Positions 275-7,981 of a stretch of DNA of 33,746 bases are shown piece after piece. A program made the translations under genes and the position numbers. The notes under the pieces were generated by a model. The model made no database searches and was not told the DNA's origin. It worked only from the letters and a program-made list of their open reading frames with translations. This DNA is from Zhihengliuella salsuginis. GTDB taxonomy: Bacteria; Actinomycetota; Actinomycetes; Actinomycetales; Micrococcaceae. The stretch lies in NCBI RefSeq assembly GCF_014651715.1, contig NZ_BMXK01000017.1, positions 1 to 33,746 on the forward strand, read 5' to 3'. Position 1 is the first letter of the stretch. The number at the start of each line of letters is the position of its first letter.

Positions 275-958
275 TCAGGCCTCGTCGGCCTCCAGGTGCC
301 CCAGCAGCTCGGCCTCGGCGCGGTCCAGATAGGCTCGCAGCTCGTCGGCCGCCGCCACGCGCTCGCCCTGCCGCAGCAACTGGACCAGGGCGATGTTCGC
401 GTCCACATAGCGGGTGTGGAAGTCCGGGGCCCGCCGCATCGCGTGGAACACCAGACGCATCTGGGCCAGCACCTGCGTCATCAGCCGCTCCACCTGCGAA
501 CTCTCCGTCGCCCGGATGAGCTGCTCGTGGAACCGCTGGTTCGCCGAGGCCATCGCGGCGACGTCACCCGCCTCGCGGGCGCGCTGGGCCGTCTCGACCA
601 CGCCCTCCAGGGCCGCCACATCCAGCCGGGTGCCCCACAGGACCGCAGCCGGCTCCAACAGGCGCCGCACCCGGTAGATCTCCCGGACCTGCTCGGCGCC
701 CGGGGCCATGACGAACACGCCCCGGTTCGGAACACGCGTCACGATCAGCTCCCCGGCCAGCACCGTGAACGCCTCCCGCAGGGTGTTCCGCGAGACGCTC
801 AACGCCTCCGCGAGCTGCTGCTCGGACAACTTCGCGCCCGGCTCCAGCTGCCCGTCCGCGATCGACTTCCGCAGCACCGAGGCGACCCACGCGCCGGTGT
901 GGGCGTGCGGGGCGGCCTCGTCGGGAAGCGCGTAGCGGATCAGGCTGGGCGTAGGCAT
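275..958 (-). CDS. GntR family regulator, FadR subfamily (FCD domain), probable regulator of the pxp operon
   Basis: A 227-residue DNA-binding repressor or activator. Residues 24-83 form a GntR winged helix (helix-turn-helix around LAEALSVSRNTLREAF, wing around VPNRGVFVM); residues about 90-220 form an all-helical FCD effector domain. Of the usual FCD metal ligands, the FH at residues 142-143 is kept. By my alignment the two later histidines are replaced (Asn in the DANIALVQ segment, Tyr in LRAYL), so effector binding may be metal-independent. It is the last gene of the pxp cluster, nine bases after the biotin-carboxylase stop. An 11-bp FadR-type operator lies in front of pxpA. Family call is firm; control of pxp is inference from position plus operator. 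Confidence 0.9.
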   Translation of the reverse strand: MPTPSLIRYALPDEAAPHAHTGAWVASVLRKSIADGQLEPGAKLSEQQLAEALSVSRNTLREAFTVLAGELIVTRVPNRGVFVMAPGAEQVREIYRVRRLLEPAAVLWGTRLDVAALEGVVETAQRAREAGDVAAMASANQRFHEQLIRATESSQVERLMTQVLAQMRLVFHAMRRAPDFHTRYVDANIALVQLLRQGERVAAADELRAYLDRAEAELLGHLEADEA

Positions 959-970
959 GACACCAATCTA
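959..970 (-). promoter_or_regulatory. Putative leaderless promoter of gntR (-10 TAGATT, six bases before ATG)
   Basis: Reading the minus strand, TAGATT (970-965) is followed by six bases and then the gntR ATG. Transcription would begin at or next to the start codon. The first three bases of the hexamer are the TAG stop codon of the preceding gene. No Shine-Dalgarno sequence precedes this ATG. The same arrangement recurs at other genes in the window, which raises its credibility. Confidence 0.5.
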
Positions 971-2725
971 TCCGTCGATCCGCCCGAGCGCCTCGCCGCG
1001 TTTCACGGCCTGGCCCGGCTCCTGATCGCCGCGCGAGAACACGCCGGCACGGTGCGCCGGAACCGGCGACTCCATCTTCATCGCCTCCATGATCGCCACC
1101 GGCTCGTCCGCCGCGACGTCGGCGCCGTCCTCGGCGACCCACTTCACCAGATTCCCCTCGACCGGCGAGGCGATCGCGCCGGCCGAGGAGCCGTCGTCGT
1201 CCTCATCCGCCTCGACGCCGGCCGGGACGCTGCCGCCGGAGCGCAGGGCCGCCAGCAGGTCCGCGGGGACGCCGACCTGGACGGCCCGGCCGTCGATGTC
1301 GACCGTGAGGCGCTCGCGGCGTCCGTCGTGCGCGGGCAGGGCGATGTCCTCGGACCCCTCGACGGTCGAGCCGTCGCCCGGCTGGAACGCGTCCTCGATC
1401 CACGTGGTGTAGACGCCGAACTCCTCGCTGCCCGTGAAGGCCGGATCCGCGACGACCGCCCGGTGGAAGGGCAGGACGGAGGGCACGCCCTCGATGACGA
1501 ACTCGTCGAGCGCGGCCCGGGCGCGCACCAGCGCCTGCTCGCGGGTGGCGCCCGTGACGATCAGCTTGGCCATCAGCGAGTCGTAGGCGGCCGGGATGGA
1601 CGAGCCCGTGCGCACGCCGGTGTCCACGCGGATGCCCGCGCCGGTGGCCACGTCGAAGCGGGTCACGTCGCCCGGCGCGGGCAGGAAGCCGCGGGCCGGG
1701 TCCTCGGCGTTGATGCGGAACTCGAACGCGTGCCCGCGCGGCGCCGGGTCCTCGGTGAGACTGAGCGGCTCGCCGGCCGCGATCCGGAACTGCTCGGCCA
1801 CCAGGTCCACGCCGGTAGTCTCCTCGGTGATCGGGTGCTCCACCTGCAGGCGCGTGTTGACCTCGAGGAAGGAGATCAGCCCGTCCGGGGCCACCAGGAA
1901 CTCGACGGTTCCGGCGCCGACGTAGCCTGCCGTCCGGCAGATCTCGCGGGCGGCCTCGTGGATGCGCGAGCGCTGGTCGTCGGTGAGGAACGGCGCGGGG
2001 GCCTCCTCGACGAGCTTCTGGTTCCGCCGCTGCAGCGAGCAGTCGCGCGTGCCGACCACGACGACGTTGCCGTGCCGGTCCGCGAGCACCTGCGCCTCAA
2101 CGTGGCGGGGCTTGTCGAGGAACCGCTCCACGAAGCACTCGCCGCGGCCGAACGCGACCTCCGCCTCGCGCACGGCGGAGGCGAACGCCTCCTCGACGTC
2201 GTCCAGCTCGCGGGCGATCCTCATGCCGCGGCCGCCTCCGCCGTGGGCGGCCTTGATGATCACCGGCAGGCCGTGCTCCTCGGCGAAGGCGCGGGCCTCG
2301 TCGGCGGAATCGACGGGGCCGTCGCTGCCGGGGACCAGCGGGGCGCCGGCGTTCACCGCGATGTCACGGGCGGTCACCTTGTTGCCGAGCGCGCGGATCG
2401 TCTCCGGGTCCGGCCCGATCCACGCCAGGCCGGCGTCGATCACGGCCTGGGCGAAGTCGGCGTTCTCCGAGAGGAACCCGTAGCCCGGGTGCACGGCGTC
2501 GGCCCCCGAGAGGCGGGCCGCGCCCAGCACCTTCTCGATGTTCAGGTACGTGTCGGCGCCCGAGGTGCCCTGGAGCGGGTAGGCCTCGTCGGCCCGGCGC
2601 ACGTGCAGCGCGTCGGCGTCGGGATCGGAGTAGACCGCCACCGACTCGAGGCCGGCGTCCGAGCAGGCGCGGGCGATCCGCACGGCGATCTCCCCGCGGT
2701 TGGCGATCAGGACCTTCTTCAGCAC
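968..2725 (-). other. Alternative internal start giving a stand-alone biotin carboxylase-BCCP (585 aa)
   Basis: Inside the fused frame, GAGAGG (2737-2732 on the minus strand) lies six bases before a GTG at 2725-2723 that opens exactly at [14 protein letters not shown], the usual N-terminus of an AccC/AccA-type biotin carboxylase. The resulting 585 residues match the family's normal length (about 580-600 for actinobacterial BC-BCCP chains). The cell may therefore make the fusion, the separate enzyme, or both. This entry marks the internal initiation site and alternative product, not a second locus. Confidence 0.6.
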
Positions 2726-4474
2726 GGTGTTCCTCTCGGTCGGTGACGGTGACGGTTTTGATGCGGGTGGGGCCGGAGCGGGCACCGCCGGCTCTGCGGA
2801 CGACGACGGCGCCCGGCCCGCCGCCGATCGCGTGCGGTTCGCGGGGTCGGCGTCGACGGGGACGAAGCGGATCCGCGATCCCGGCGGGAGCTGGGCCGCG
2901 ATCGAGAGGTCCTCGGAGAGCACGGTCCCGATGACGGGGTAGCCGCCCGTGACCGGGTGGTCGGCCATGAACAGCACGGGCAGGCCCGAAGGCGGGACCT
3001 GGAGTGCGCCGGCGACCATGCCCTCGCTTGCGAGCTCGCCGTCGCGCGCCCGGACCAGCGGGCCGGACACGTCGCCGGTACCGGTGTCGCCAGTGGAGTC
3101 CTCGAGCTGCAGGCGCAGGCCCACGCGGTTGGAGTCGGGCCCGACGACCCAGTCCTGGTTGGCGAACCGCTCCAGCTCGGCGTCGCCGAACCAGTCGGCG
3201 CGTGGGCCGGCGACGAAGCGCAGGGTCGCGGCGCCGTCGTCGTCCGGGCCGGGGGCGCGCAGGGTGGTGGGTTCCGGGGCGCCCACCGGGCGCAGGGTCG
3301 GGTCGGCGAGGCGGGGCAGCAGCGCGCCGGCGGCGAGCGGGGCCGGGCCGAGCCCGGAGAGCGAGTCGGTCGCGCGGCTGCCCAGGGTGGCCGCGGCCGC
3401 GATCCCGCCGCGGACGCCGAGGTACGTGCGCAGCCCGGCCGTCGCGGGGGAGAGGGCGAGGGTTTCGCCGTCGAGCAGCGCGAACGGGGCGCCGAACGGC
3501 GCCGGGCGCTCGGTCCGTCGTTCGTCGGACGCTGCGGGGGTGATGACCGCGTCCGCGGTGGCGCCGGTCAGGGCGAGCACCTGGTCGCCGACGGCGCGGA
3601 AGCGGGCGCGGGAGAGGAGGATCTCGACGACGGCGTCGCCCGCCCCGTTGCCCAGCAGGCGGTTGACCTGGCGCGCGGCCGGGCGGTCGGCCGCGCCGGA
3701 GGCGGGGACGCCGAGGGCGGCCTGGCCGGCGCGTCCGAGGTCCTGGACGAGGGACTGCAGGCCCGGGTCGAGCACCTCGAGGCCGGGGGTGCCTGGGGCC
3801 GGGGGCACGGGTTCGGCTGCGGGCGCGCTCGTGTCGCGGCTGGTCGTGAGCTGCTCGGTCACCGCGCGGAAGCGCACGCGGTCGAGCGGGGCGATCAGCG
3901 CCGGCTGCTCCCGTTCGAGGTCCCACAGGACGGCGTCGGTGCGGCCGATCAACTGCCATCCGCCGGGGCTCTGGCGCGGGTAGACGGCCGAGAACTCGCC
4001 GGCCAGCGCCACGGAGCCGGCCGGCACCGCGGTGCGCGGCGAGTCGCGGCGGGGCACCGACAGACGCGCGTCGCCGCCGGTCAGGTACGTGAAGCCCGGG
4101 GCGAAACCGCCGAAGGCGCCGGTCCACTCGGTGCCCGTGTGGGCGTTGACGACGGCCTCGGGGCTGAGCCCGGTGAGCCGGGAGACCTCGGCGAGGTCGT
4201 CGCCGTCGTACACGACCTCGATCTCGACCTGCCGGCCGGAGCCGGCGGTGCCGGAGGTCTCCGGCAGGCCCTCGCCCAGGCGCGCGGCCAGGCGGGCGGC
4301 GCCGGAGGGGGAGTGGGCGCGGACGAGCACCGTGGTGGCGGCGGCGATGACCTCCGCCTGTCCAGGGAGCGGGCGCTCTGCGAGCTCCGCCTGCAGGGCG
4401 AGGACCTCGTCGAGGCCGGGCAGCTCGATCAGGACGGCCCGGTCGCCGAAGGGGCGGACCTCGAACTGTTTCAC
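968..4474 (-). CDS. Fused 5-oxoprolinase subunits PxpB-PxpC with biotin carboxylase and BCCP domains
   Basis: One uninterrupted frame of 1168 codons. Residues 1-208 are PxpB/KipI (CT_C_D; starts [13 protein letters not shown], contains [10 protein letters not shown]). Residues 231-550 are PxpC/KipA ([23 protein letters not shown]). A Pro/Ser/Ala-rich linker covers about 551-583. From 584 comes biotin carboxylase ([17 protein letters not shown]-grasp glycine loop GGGGRGM, catalytic [11 protein letters not shown]), ending in a BCCP domain with the biotinyl lysine in EAMKMES. PxpBC with PxpA hydrolyses 5-oxoproline to glutamate using ATP; BC/BCCP carboxylates biotin. The GTG start overlaps the pxpA stop (GTGA, 4471-4474). 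In relatives PxpBC and BC-BCCP are usually separate; here no stop separates them, though an internal GTG with a ribosome site exists at 2725. No separate carboxyltransferase is adjacent. Confidence 0.85.
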
Positions 4475-5229
4475 GCGAAACTCCGGATGTGGATGCCGGC
4501 GGCCTCGAGGGCGCGGCGCACGGCGGCGGCCATCGCCACCGCGCCGGGGGTGTCCGAGTGGACGCAGATGCTCTCCGCGTCGGTCGTGAGCACGGTCCCG
4601 TCGACGGCGACGATCTTGCCCTCGGTGGCGAGACGGACCATGTTCGCGGTGACGGTGCCGACGTCGTGGATGACGGCGTCCGGCTCCCGGCGGGAGACGA
4701 GCGTGCCCTCGGGGGTGTAGTTGCGGTCGGCGAACGCCTCGGAGACGGCGCGCAGGCCGGCCGCCTCCGCCTTGGCGTGCACCACCGAGCCGGGCAAGCC
4801 GAGGATCGGCAGGTCCCCGCCGAGGGCGCGGACGGCGTCGACGACGGCCTGGGCGTGCCCCTCGTGGGTGACGATCGCGTTGTAGAGGGCGCCGTGCGGC
4901 TTGACGTAGTGGATGCGCTTGCCGGTCGACGCGGCCATCGCCTGGAGGGCGCCGAGCTGGTAGAGGATGTCGTCGGCGAGCTCGGTCTGCGAGCAGTCGA
5001 GGAAGCGGCGGCCGAAGCCGGCCAGGTCGCGGTAGGCCACGTGGGCGCCGATCGTGATGTTCGCGGACGCGGCGTCGCGGCAGGTCTGCGCGATCGTCGA
5101 CGGGTCGCCGGCGTGGAAGCCGCAGGCCACGTTGGCGCTGGAGACCGATTCGAAAATCGCGGCGTCGTCGCCCATGGACCAGCTGCCGAAGGACTCGCCG
5201 ACGTCGGAGTTGAGGTCGATAACCGGCAT
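4471..5229 (-). CDS. pxpA: 5-oxoprolinase subunit PxpA (LamB/YcsF family)
   Basis: A 252-residue LamB/YcsF protein of standard length. It begins with the family signature [17 protein letters not shown], followed by [27 protein letters not shown] and [10 protein letters not shown], which carry the conserved His, Asp and Lys residues of the active site. With PxpB and PxpC it forms the ATP-dependent 5-oxoprolinase that opens pyroglutamate to L-glutamate in the cytoplasm. It is the first gene of the minus-strand operon; GGAG lies nine bases before the ATG. Its stop overlaps the GTG of the PxpBC fusion by four bases, so the two are probably translationally coupled. Identification is firm. Confidence 0.93.
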
Positions 5230-5390: not shown

Positions 5391-6647
5391 GTGACGAGCC
5401 CCCATTCCCCCGACCCCCGCTGGCGCGGCCACGTGCCCGGGTCGCGCGAGTACCGGCGCGTCATCATCGCCCTCGTCGCCGCCGGGATCGCGGCGTTCTC
5501 GCAGCTGTATGCCGCGCAGGGCATGCTTCCGTCGCTGGCGCGGGACATGGGCATCACCGAGCCGCAGGCCGCCCTGTCGGTCTCCGCCGCGACCGGCGGG
5601 CTGGCGCTCGCCGTGCTCCCGTGGAGCATCGTCGCGGACCGGCTGGGCCGGCAGCGGACGCTGACGATCGCGATGATCGCCGCCGTCGTGCTGGGCGTCG
5701 GCGTGAGCCTCGCGCCCGACTACGCGTGGCTGCTGGCGCTGCGCGCCGCGCAGGGGGCCGCGATCGCCGGCATCCCGGCGACGGCGATGGCCTACCTCTC
5801 CGAGGAGCTGACGCCGGCCGGCGTGGCGACCGCGGCCGGACTCTTCGTCTCCGGCAACACCGTCGGCGGCCTGTCCGGCCGCCTCATCGCCGGCCCGCTC
5901 GGCGAGCTCGTCTCCTGGCAGATCGGCTTCGGCGCCGTCACCCTGGTGGCCGCCGCGGCGGCCGTCGCCTTCATCCTCGCGGCCCCGCCGTCCCTCGGAT
6001 TCGTCCCCGAGCGCGCCTCCCGCGGCACGAAGGCGCCGCCCGGCTCCCAGCTGACCTTCCGCGCCAAGCTGGGCGCCGTGCTCCGCAGCCGCCACCTGCT
6101 GGCGCTCTACGGGCAGGCGCTGCTGCTCATGGGCGGGTTCGTCGCCGTCTACAACTACCTGGGATTCCGGCTCGAGGCGCCGCCGCTGCTGGTCGCGCCG
6201 GCGCTGACCTCGCTCGTGTTCATCGCCTACCTGGCCGGCACCTTCGCCTCGCCGAAGGCCGGACGCCTCGCGCTGCGCTTCGGCCGGCTGGGCACCCTCC
6301 TGGGCGGCACGGCCCTCATGCTCGCCGGCCTGGCGCTGACCCTGATCACCTGGCTGCCGGCGATCATCGCCGGGATGGTGGTCTTCACGGCCGGCTTCTT
6401 CGTCGCGCACGCCGTCGCGAGCGGCTGGATCTCGACCTTCGCGCCGACGGGCCGGGCGCAGGCGACGGCCCTCTACAACCTGGGGTACTACGGCGGATCG
6501 AGCGTCTTCGGCTGGGCCGTCGGCCTCGCCTTCGCGCCGTTCGGCTGGCCGGGCATCGTCGTGTCGGTGGCGGTGCTCGCGCTCGTCGCGGCAGGGTGGG
6601 CCTGGCTGGTCCTGCGGCCCGGGCCCGGCGATAGGCTGGAGGCGTGA
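5391..6647 (+). CDS. MFS transporter (DHA1/YnfM-like exporter)
   Basis: A 418-residue membrane protein with about 12 hydrophobic helices in two six-helix halves. The loop after helix 2 carries motif A of the major facilitator superfamily (DRLGRQRTL), and the first helix region resembles YnfM/AraJ-type drug and sugar efflux proteins. The GTG at 5391 is preferred over an in-frame ATG at 5268 because the longer version would run through the pxpA operator and add 41 non-hydrophobic residues, and because a -10-like TAGAGT sits seven bases before the GTG. It diverges from pxpA and overlaps the downstream MATE gene by GTGA, so the two exporters are probably co-expressed. Substrate is not predictable. 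Confidence 0.88.
6632..6643 (+). promoter_or_regulatory. Putative internal leaderless promoter of the MATE gene
   Basis: TAGGCT at 6632-6637 lies six bases before the GTG at 6644, inside the last codons of the MFS gene. The GGAGG at 6638-6642 is only one base from the start codon, too close for a normal ribosome site. Initiation is therefore probably by coupling through the GTGA overlap, from a leaderless transcript, or both. Confidence 0.4.
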
Positions 6648-7981
6648 CCCCCTCCGATTCCACCGCGCAGACGCACCGCGGCCTCGGCCGGTCGATCCTC
6701 GCGCTCGCGGTCCCCGCCCTCGGCGCGCTGATCGCCGAGCCCCTGTTCCTCGCCGCCGACACCGCCATCATCGGCCACCTCGGCGTTCCCGAGCTCGCCG
6801 GCATCGGCCTCGGGGCGACGATCGTGACGACCGCCGTCGGCCTGTTGATCTTCCTCGCCTATTCGACGACCCCGGCCGTCGCACGCCACATCGGCGCCGG
6901 CCGGCTGCCGCAGGCGCTCGCTGCCGGGCGCGACGGCGTCGCCCTGGCTCTCGGGCTCGGCATCGTCCTGGCCGTGGCCGGCTGGTTCTCCGCGCCGGCG
7001 ATCGTCGCCGCGATGGGCGGGACGGGCGACGTCGCGCGCTTCGGCATCGACTATGTGCGCTTCTCGATGCCCGGGCTGCCGGCGATGCTGCTGGTGCTCG
7101 CCGCGACCGGCGTGCTGCGCGGGATGCAGGACACCAAGACCCCGCTCTACGTCGCCGCGGCCGGGTTCGGCGTGAACATCCTGCTCAACTTCGCGCTCGT
7201 CTACGGGGCCGGGCTCTCGGTCGCCGGCAGCGCGATCGGCACGTCGATCGTGCAGTGGGCGATGGCCCTCGTCTACCTGCGCATCCTCGTCCCGCGCGCC
7301 CGCGCCGCAGCCGTCCCGTTGCGGCCGAGCGGTCGCGGCGTCGTCGCCATGGCGCACGTCGGCTCGTGGCTCATGCTGCGCACACTGAGCCTGCGCATCG
7401 CGATCCTCGCGACCGTCTGGGTCGCCACGAGTCAGGGGGCCGTCACGCTCGCCGGCCACCAGCTGGTGTTCACGCTCTTCACGTTCCTCGCGTTCGCGCT
7501 CGACGCCCTCGCCATCGCCGCCCAGGCGCTCATCGGCAAGGAGCTCGGCGCGTCCAATCCAGCTCGCGCCCACGCGCTCACCCGGACGATGACGCGCTGG
7601 GGCCTGATGTTCGGGGTTGTCACGGGCGCGCTGCTCGCCCTCGCCGCCCCCTGGCTGCCGTACCTGTTCACCGGCGACGACGAGGTACGCGCCGCCGCGA
7701 CGATCGGCCTCTGGGTGCTGGCGGCGTCGCAGCCGGTGTGCGGGCTGGTGTTCGTGCTCGACGGCGTCCTGATCGGCGCCGGCGACGCACGGTACCTGGC
7801 GCTCGCGGGGCTCGTCGCATTCGTTCTGTACGCTCCGCTGCTCGCCGCGGCGGCGTGGGCGGATCTGCCCGGGGAGCCGATCCTGAAGCTCTGGCTCGCG
7901 TTCGGTGTCGGCTACCTCGTCGCCCGAGCGCTCACGCTGACCTGGCGGATCCGCAACGACGCGTGGATGCGCCTGGGCTGA
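6644..7981 (+). CDS. MATE family efflux transporter (DinF-like)
   Basis: A 445-residue, 12-helix protein. The N-terminal half (LAVPALGALIAEPLFLAADTAIIGHLG) carries the typical MATE/DinF opening, and the second half repeats the fold. Family members export drugs or metabolites in exchange for H+ or Na+. Length is normal. The GTG start overlaps the MFS stop (GTGA 6644-6647), implying coupled expression of two exporters of different superfamilies. It converges on the flavin-binding gene with five bases between stops and no hairpin. Substrate unknown. Confidence 0.9.
   Translation: MTPSDSTAQTHRGLGRSILALAVPALGALIAEPLFLAADTAIIGHLGVPELAGIGLGATIVTTAVGLLIFLAYSTTPAVARHIGAGRLPQALAAGRDGVALALGLGIVLAVAGWFSAPAIVAAMGGTGDVARFGIDYVRFSMPGLPAMLLVLAATGVLRGMQDTKTPLYVAAAGFGVNILLNFALVYGAGLSVAGSAIGTSIVQWAMALVYLRILVPRARAAAVPLRPSGRGVVAMAHVGSWLMLRTLSLRIAILATVWVATSQGAVTLAGHQLVFTLFTFLAFALDALAIAAQALIGKELGASNPARAHALTRTMTRWGLMFGVVTGALLALAAPWLPYLFTGDDEVRAAATIGLWVLAASQPVCGLVFVLDGVLIGAGDARYLALAGLVAFVLYAPLLAAAAWADLPGEPILKLWLAFGVGYLVARALTLTWRIRNDAWMRLG

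Follow-up and report, generated by a model that had tools for sequence, protein, structure and literature searches.

A single open reading frame of Zhihengliuella salsuginis (family Micrococcaceae) joins two subunits of the PxpABC 5-oxoprolinase, PxpB and PxpC, to a biotin carboxylase (BC) and a biotin carboxyl carrier protein (BCCP). The frame lies in a stretch of 33,746 nucleotides of contig NZ_BMXK01000017.1, here called the window. Sequence comparison indicates that the gene fusion is real, that it is seen so far in one genus and that it is a variant of an already known pair of neighbouring genes. The two genes are also conserved as neighbours outside the genus, and the link between biotin and Pxp is, judged from these loci, wider than the fusion, a point absent from an earlier sequence-only reading of this DNA.

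Fusion of neighbouring genes is good evidence of joint action of their products. In the window, the fusion couples a biotin carboxylase with Pxp subunits whose assumed phosphorylation mechanism has no biotin, according to the available part of its description (PMC13274462), and it hints that the enzyme uses biotin to open a ring-shaped substrate. We lean, if only slightly, towards the explanation that loss of a stop codon joined the co-operating neighbours pxpBC and BC-BCCP into one tethered enzyme, which would be a biotin-dependent lactam carboxylase working with PxpA. If ring opening does need bicarbonate and biotin, this would constitute a second mechanism for 5-oxoproline use. No description of a Pxp-biotin carboxylase fusion was found among the matches listed in the open-access literature, as judged by titles and the starts of abstracts.

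The fused reading frame and its occurrence

The fusion is a single frame of 1168 codons on the minus strand (4474 to 968), in which CT_C_D, CT_A_B, BC and BCCP follow one another with no stop inside. Translation of 971-4474 gave 1168 uninterrupted residues with a predicted mass of 121 kDa; the stop codon ends at 968, and the GTG start codon at 4474 overlaps the stop codon of pxpA. The domains identified by Pfam were, in order, the PxpB-like CT_C_D at residues 5-193 (positions 3896-4462; PF02682, 1.9e-58), the PxpC-like CT_A_B at residues 254-539 (2858-3715; PF02626, 1.5e-72), the biotin carboxylase at residues 585-1027 (1394-2722), comprising Biotin_carb_N at 585-693 (PF00289), ATP-grasp at 699-905 (PF02786) and Biotin_carb_C at 918-1027 (PF02785), and the Biotin_lipoyl domain of the BCCP at residues 1101-1166 (977-1174; PF00364, 6.1e-11), where K1133 in the motif EAMKM is the predicted biotin lysine. 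All six domains exceeded their cut-offs. The sequence-only reading had proposed a single in-frame product with this domain order, giving no strand, and both proposals held.

The frame is open in four of five genomes of the genus, namely that of the window and three others, and two of these four are single-contig assemblies. The match in the four genomes spans the whole protein or residues 6-1168, without an internal stop. A comparison of the junction with relatives had been suggested in the sequence-only reading; no stop or frameshift occurred near 2740-2850, and a sequencing error or frameshift in this interval is ruled out because four assemblies have the open frame. By this comparison the open frame is more than chance.

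The scan of species genomes yielded 80 loci, 22 of which have both halves adjacent. From a family sample of 100 genomes, the best 30 loci were analysed, which comprised the four fused loci and 26 others with PxpC beside BC. After removal of ten duplicate loci, 55 loci were classified at the junction; four read through in frame, and in 50 the PxpC frame ends ahead of the first compared BC codon or at most 12 bases past the first base of that codon. In Arthrobacter sp. ATA002 (L017, about 6578-7116), the PxpC frame continues for 470 bases out of frame into BC, reflecting either a frameshift or a sequencing fault. Eight further loci all stop before BC. Normal ends were found in 58 of 59 non-fused loci, one locus of the same genus (L120) among them. 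No in-frame fusion outside the four was present among these 59 other loci, which include those from the best 30 of the 100-genome family scan and three plasmid matches (H6, H11 and H19) that aligned in one piece yet are not fused.

Linker, junction and internal start

The two halves are connected by a linker at residues 542-580 (2735-2851), in which 27 of 39 residues are Pro, Ala or Ser, matching the composition read earlier from the sequence. It is predicted to be flexible and disordered: in the fold prediction of the fusion, the predicted local distance difference test score (pLDDT) of the linker was below 50 and no secondary structure was assigned. The whole model had a mean pLDDT of 79.5 and a predicted template modelling score (pTM) of 0.56; eight other segments also fell below 50, and given this pTM and these low-scoring stretches the prediction says nothing on domain packing. 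The 6-base tandem repeat noted in the sequence-only reading was located within the linker at 2742-2753, as two in-frame copies (GGTGAC twice on the plus strand).

Measured from the last PxpC residues to KVLIANRG, the linkers of the four fused genomes are 38, 40, 49 and 50 codons long, all in frame. The frame relation of PxpC to BC in separate-gene relatives was offset 0 in 14, 1 in 6 and 2 in 31 of 51 loci. These values bear on a rival explanation, which we regard as somewhat unlikely, that the stop codon was lost neutrally; PxpBC and BC-BCCP would already have formed a complex, the longer chain would change nothing, and the linker would be drift kept open by high G+C. Between 55 and 75% of mononucleotide shuffles of each linker stayed open, so that the openness of a single linker is weak evidence. 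The third-position G+C of the linkers is 82-87%, under the 90-97% of the flanking coding parts, and the linker therefore looks less constrained than the domains. Both results favour neutral loss, as does the persistence of the ribosome site and start codon described below. Neutral loss is opposed by linker lengths that vary among the four genomes and yet stay in frame, while the separate-gene relatives show all three frame relations, and by retention of the fusion over a divergence of up to 37% in the PxpBC part of the protein. Retention of the frame despite length changes appears to be better evidence than openness, yet it is modest, comprising three length differences (with lengths random modulo 3, the chance would by our estimate be about 1 in 27).

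The fusion probably arose when a stop codon was lost while the old ribosome site and start codon persisted. Two other genera of the family include loci in which PxpC and BC share a frame, with TGA between the ribosome site and ATG; the junction is GAGAGGACTGATCCATG in L092 and L153 and GAGAGGACTGACCCATG in L154, and L089 and L093 are alike. The junction of the window is GAGAGGAACACCGTG. The ribosome-site-like GAGAGGA (2737-2731, minus strand) stands in front of an internal GTG (2725-2723, codon 584), where relatives begin BC; these are the internal start and ribosome site reported in the sequence-only reading. GAGAGGA also precedes the BC start in L092, L114 and L153-L156 and was probably retained from the separate-gene state.

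In the linker of another fused genome (G001), GGAGGT lies six bases before an in-frame ATG and is the sole 6-base match among the 75 in-frame start codons of G001. The 4-fold degenerate sites of G001 differ from those of the other fused genomes by 40-50%, and GGAGGT is nonetheless retained. Two products are likely on this comparison, with the internal GTG probably yielding some free BC-BCCP (62 kDa) as well as the 121 kDa fusion. PxpC is not followed by a stop, so that free PxpBC could be formed only via proteolysis, and a short biotinylated protein found alone would therefore also imply that no intact fusion persists.

The Pxp-biotin association and its candidate chemistry

Three states were seen among the loci: separate PxpB and PxpC, fused PxpBC with an adjacent BC-BCCP, and all in one chain. 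PxpB and PxpC form one open reading frame in 54 of 54 loci that are fused or have an adjacent BC, and in 0 of 15 without BC. The biotin motif in the 54 loci is EAMKM in 50 and EAMKT in two (L088 and L093); L120 is without a BCCP, and none was found in L141, which ends soon after BC. In another family of the phylum, three genomes have separate PxpB and PxpC, followed by BC approximately 0.8 kb downstream of PxpC. A BCCP gene lies between PxpC and BC in L125 (2591-3076, 3125-3805) and L129 (794-1279, 2-778), and L127 has a similar spacing. Each of these three genomes has another BC elsewhere. This second Pxp-BC lineage is separate from that of the window in the PxpC tree, and on that account Pxp and biotin carboxylase may have joined more than once.

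The PxpC tree comprised 75 domains, with four odd or partial rows left out; an alignment in which PxpBC rows matched only 19-23% (A2) was discarded. The rows with an adjacent BC were gathered mostly with a BC-containing query, so that they do not show how common such loci are among Pxp loci. In the tree, 50 of 51 fused or directly BC-adjacent rows formed one clade (support 96/86), which spans Actinomycetota and Pseudomonadota and includes Corynebacterium, Cryobacterium, Arthrobacter relatives, Variovorax, Xenorhabdus, rhizobia and others. The sole BC-adjacent row outside it is G004, on a long branch. The four fused PxpC domains had a single origin (100/99), and the four urea-carboxylase-type rows formed a separate clade (100/100), apart from the carboxyltransferase (CT) of the window. 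The BC tree comprised 78 domains, with 61 other BC rows thinned to 23 and L120 not included. All 53 Pxp-linked BCs, that of the window among them, formed one clade (95/99), far from the two urea-carboxylase BCs. Descent from urea carboxylase gained no support, since neither tree places the CT or the BC of the window with it, on four and two urea-carboxylase rows, respectively, with long branches. The sequence-only reading had described the fusion as the urea-carboxylase domain set reordered; the different order stands, and reshuffling by descent is supported by neither tree, within the few urea-carboxylase rows they contain.

The BC tree also bears on the idea that BC-BCCP serves an acyl-CoA carboxylase and is merely located in the pxp operon. 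The Pxp-linked BCs stand beside other BC-BCCPs in that tree, the two nearest including the second BC-BCCP of the host itself, and among proteins of solved structure the BC-BCCP half matches an acyl-CoA carboxylase alpha3 subunit best (749 bits). The host, however, has another BC-BCCP that is 59% identical to the fused one, and four BC genes in all, three besides the fused one; the Pxp-linked BCs form a clade of their own, and BC-BCCP is covalently fused to PxpBC. We consider service to an acyl-CoA carboxylase very improbable.

In the tethered lactam carboxylase that we favour, BC would carboxylate the biotin of BCCP using ATP and bicarbonate, and the swinging BCCP would carry the carboxyl group to the PxpBC carboxyltransferase; both steps are proposed from domain homology. 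By analogy with urea carboxylase, PxpBC may carboxylate 5-oxoproline, or a lactam resembling it, on the lactam nitrogen (or oxygen). PxpA would then open the activated ring, CO2 would leave and glutamate would be formed. A substrate of this kind, 5-oxoproline or a related lactam, is suggested because PxpA is in the operon. Biotin-dependent chemistry is plausible and unproven. More tentatively, and somewhat short of calling it probable, we propose that biotin-dependent carboxylation, not direct phosphorylation, is how a whole clade of Pxp enzymes from Actinomycetota and Pseudomonadota opens the ring of 5-oxoproline or a related lactam, and that the genus has the single-chain form.

Several observations weigh against the tethered enzyme and the path to it that we favour. 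A sample of 80 genomes of the phylum contained 22 genomes with CT_A_B, at 26 loci; 14 of the 26 are Pxp-type without BC in the approximately 1.5 kb examined on each side, and BC is directly adjacent in only two of the 22 CT-bearing genomes (that of the window, G000, and G013). The pxpBCA operon of Escherichia coli K-12 is also without BC, and since such biotin-free Pxp operons exist, the reaction does not in general require BC. PxpB and PxpC form one open reading frame in neither the three loci with BC further downstream nor the three with BC on the opposite strand, and PxpBC fusion therefore does not simply follow BC. Among the CT columns separating biotin-linked from biotin-free PxpBC, one weak column (397) was found in PxpC and none in PxpB, and so by alignment no CT column points to carboxyl transfer in biotin-linked Pxp. 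In G004, a genome of the same genus, pxpA-pxpBC stands beside a degenerate BC relative (L120, 3844-5328, minus strand); this gene, which follows pxpBC, has matches to the BC N and C domains, and model searches at the locus found no ATP-grasp match and no BCCP. It is likely a pseudo-enzyme in a pxp operon. With a degenerate BC and no BCCP, the G004 lineage seems not to rely on this operon for biotin, and by its gene content it argues against biotin being strictly required. The two genera with TGA before ATG are not the branch closest to the fused four in the PxpC tree; most members of that closest branch have an ATGA overlap instead, so that the path to fusion given above is only a likely one. 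L113, on this branch, shares the frame, with a TAA ahead of the ribosome site. The internal ribosome site of the window is weak and not exceptional: its match is 4 bases, and matches at least as good precede 10 of the 52 in-frame start codons, with this one counted.

Part of this evidence also speaks for another rival, namely that Pxp is an ordinary ATP-driven, biotin-free 5-oxoprolinase and that BC-BCCP is decaying or acts as a partner in regulation, scaffolding or bicarbonate sensing. The E. coli operon without a biotin part and the degenerate BC of G004 fit it, as do CT residues common to all classes and the operon of Corynebacterium glutamicum, which is biotin-free by its description, the word 'carboxylase' being absent from the main text so far as that text is available (PMC13274462). 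The rival is countered by the BC of the window, which is complete by Pfam, and by the BCs of the other fused proteins, whose alignments are full-length. All four fused proteins of the genus contain GGGGRGM, EVNTR and the biotin lysine, and conservation of this BC lineage extends over two phyla. A biotin-free enzyme with a BC-BCCP partner of this sort is, in our judgement, unlikely.

In the window, the gene pxpA (LamB_YcsF) lies at 4471-5229 on the minus strand, its stop codon overlapping the fusion GTG (PF03746, 3.4e-97), and belongs to the PxpA subfamily NF003814 of NCBIfam, with 349 bits against a cut-off of 226. A GntR/FCD regulator gene follows immediately downstream of the fusion (275-958, minus strand; PF00392 and PF07729) and holds the same position in G001, G002 and G003. 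In related operons, the gene upstream of PxpA encodes an NRAMP-family transporter in Paracoccus and a major facilitator superfamily transporter in Pantoea; between PxpA and PxpBC, the Pantoea and Paracoccus operons carry a gene annotated as a putative hydro-lyase (L151, 2181-2978, and L152, 2225-2995). In L128, L130 and L137, all from one family of the phylum, a BC gene lies approximately 1 kb upstream of the pxpBCA operon on the opposite strand and is possibly unrelated to it.

Comparison with known systems

The window shares PxpA, CT_C_D and CT_A_B in one operon with the PxpABC 5-oxoprolinase, as well as a nearby GntR-type regulator, as is PxpR in C. glutamicum in the part of the report available (PMC13274462). 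In the same available text, the PxpB and PxpC of classical PxpABC are assumed to phosphorylate 5-oxoproline without biotin (PMC13274462). PxpB and PxpC are separate in E. coli, with no biotin part, whereas the window has one chain with BC and BCCP. The pxpA gene is in the same operon and the PxpB and PxpC domains are above the Pfam cut-offs; the PxpB and PxpC equivalog models fell below theirs (TIGR00370, 131.5 against 145.55; NF045499, 151.9 against 500).

The domain set of urea carboxylase is BC, CT_A_B, CT_C_D and BCCP. The window has the same Pfam set, and BC, CT_A_B and CT_C_D were seen in that order in L132 and L146. In contrast, the order in the window is CT_C_D, CT_A_B, BC and BCCP, and both halves fall outside the urea-carboxylase-type clades. 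The urea carboxylase model TIGR02712 scored 668.2 bits against the fusion, below its cut-off of 1303.85. By its domains, the fusion has the parts of a biotin-dependent carboxylase in the broad sense, that is, a BC with ATP-grasp, a BCCP with a predicted biotin lysine and a CT domain.

The pxpA/pxpBC/BC-BCCP operons of Shinella, Pantoea and Paracoccus contain the same genes in the same order and belong to the same clade. Their products are annotated as '5-oxoprolinase/urea amidolyase family protein' or 'urea amidolyase family protein' and 'biotin carboxylase N-terminal domain-containing protein'. The genes are separate there, whereas they are one in the window, and Pantoea and Paracoccus have the extra gene between pxpA and pxpBC. 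In Pseudomonas aeruginosa, PA0492, PA0495 and PA0496 are, we presume, PxpA, PxpB and PxpC, making PA0492-PA0496 a pxp operon. As in the window, this operon contains a biotin-requiring protein and a BC homologue according to the available parts of two reports (PMC5521831, PMC6249292), but its genes are separate. The function of PA0493 and PA0494 is called unknown in the portion available of one of them (PMC6249292). Split urea-carboxylase CT homologues have been noted, with a function not then known, in the accessible part of a further paper (PMC3199775).

Component A (the ATPase) of the 5-oxoprolinase of Pseudomonas putida has chains of 64 and 51 kDa, and component B is of 82 kDa, as given in the available part of PMC8453981. 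The corresponding masses in the window would be 62 kDa for BC-BCCP, 56 kDa for PxpBC and 26 kDa for PxpA (78 kDa for three), a likeness of sizes only. Among solved structures, the BC-BCCP half is closest to the AccA3-type acyl-CoA carboxylase alpha subunit, from which the BC-BCCP of the window differs in being paired with Pxp carboxyltransferase domains and in belonging to a separate clade in the BC tree.

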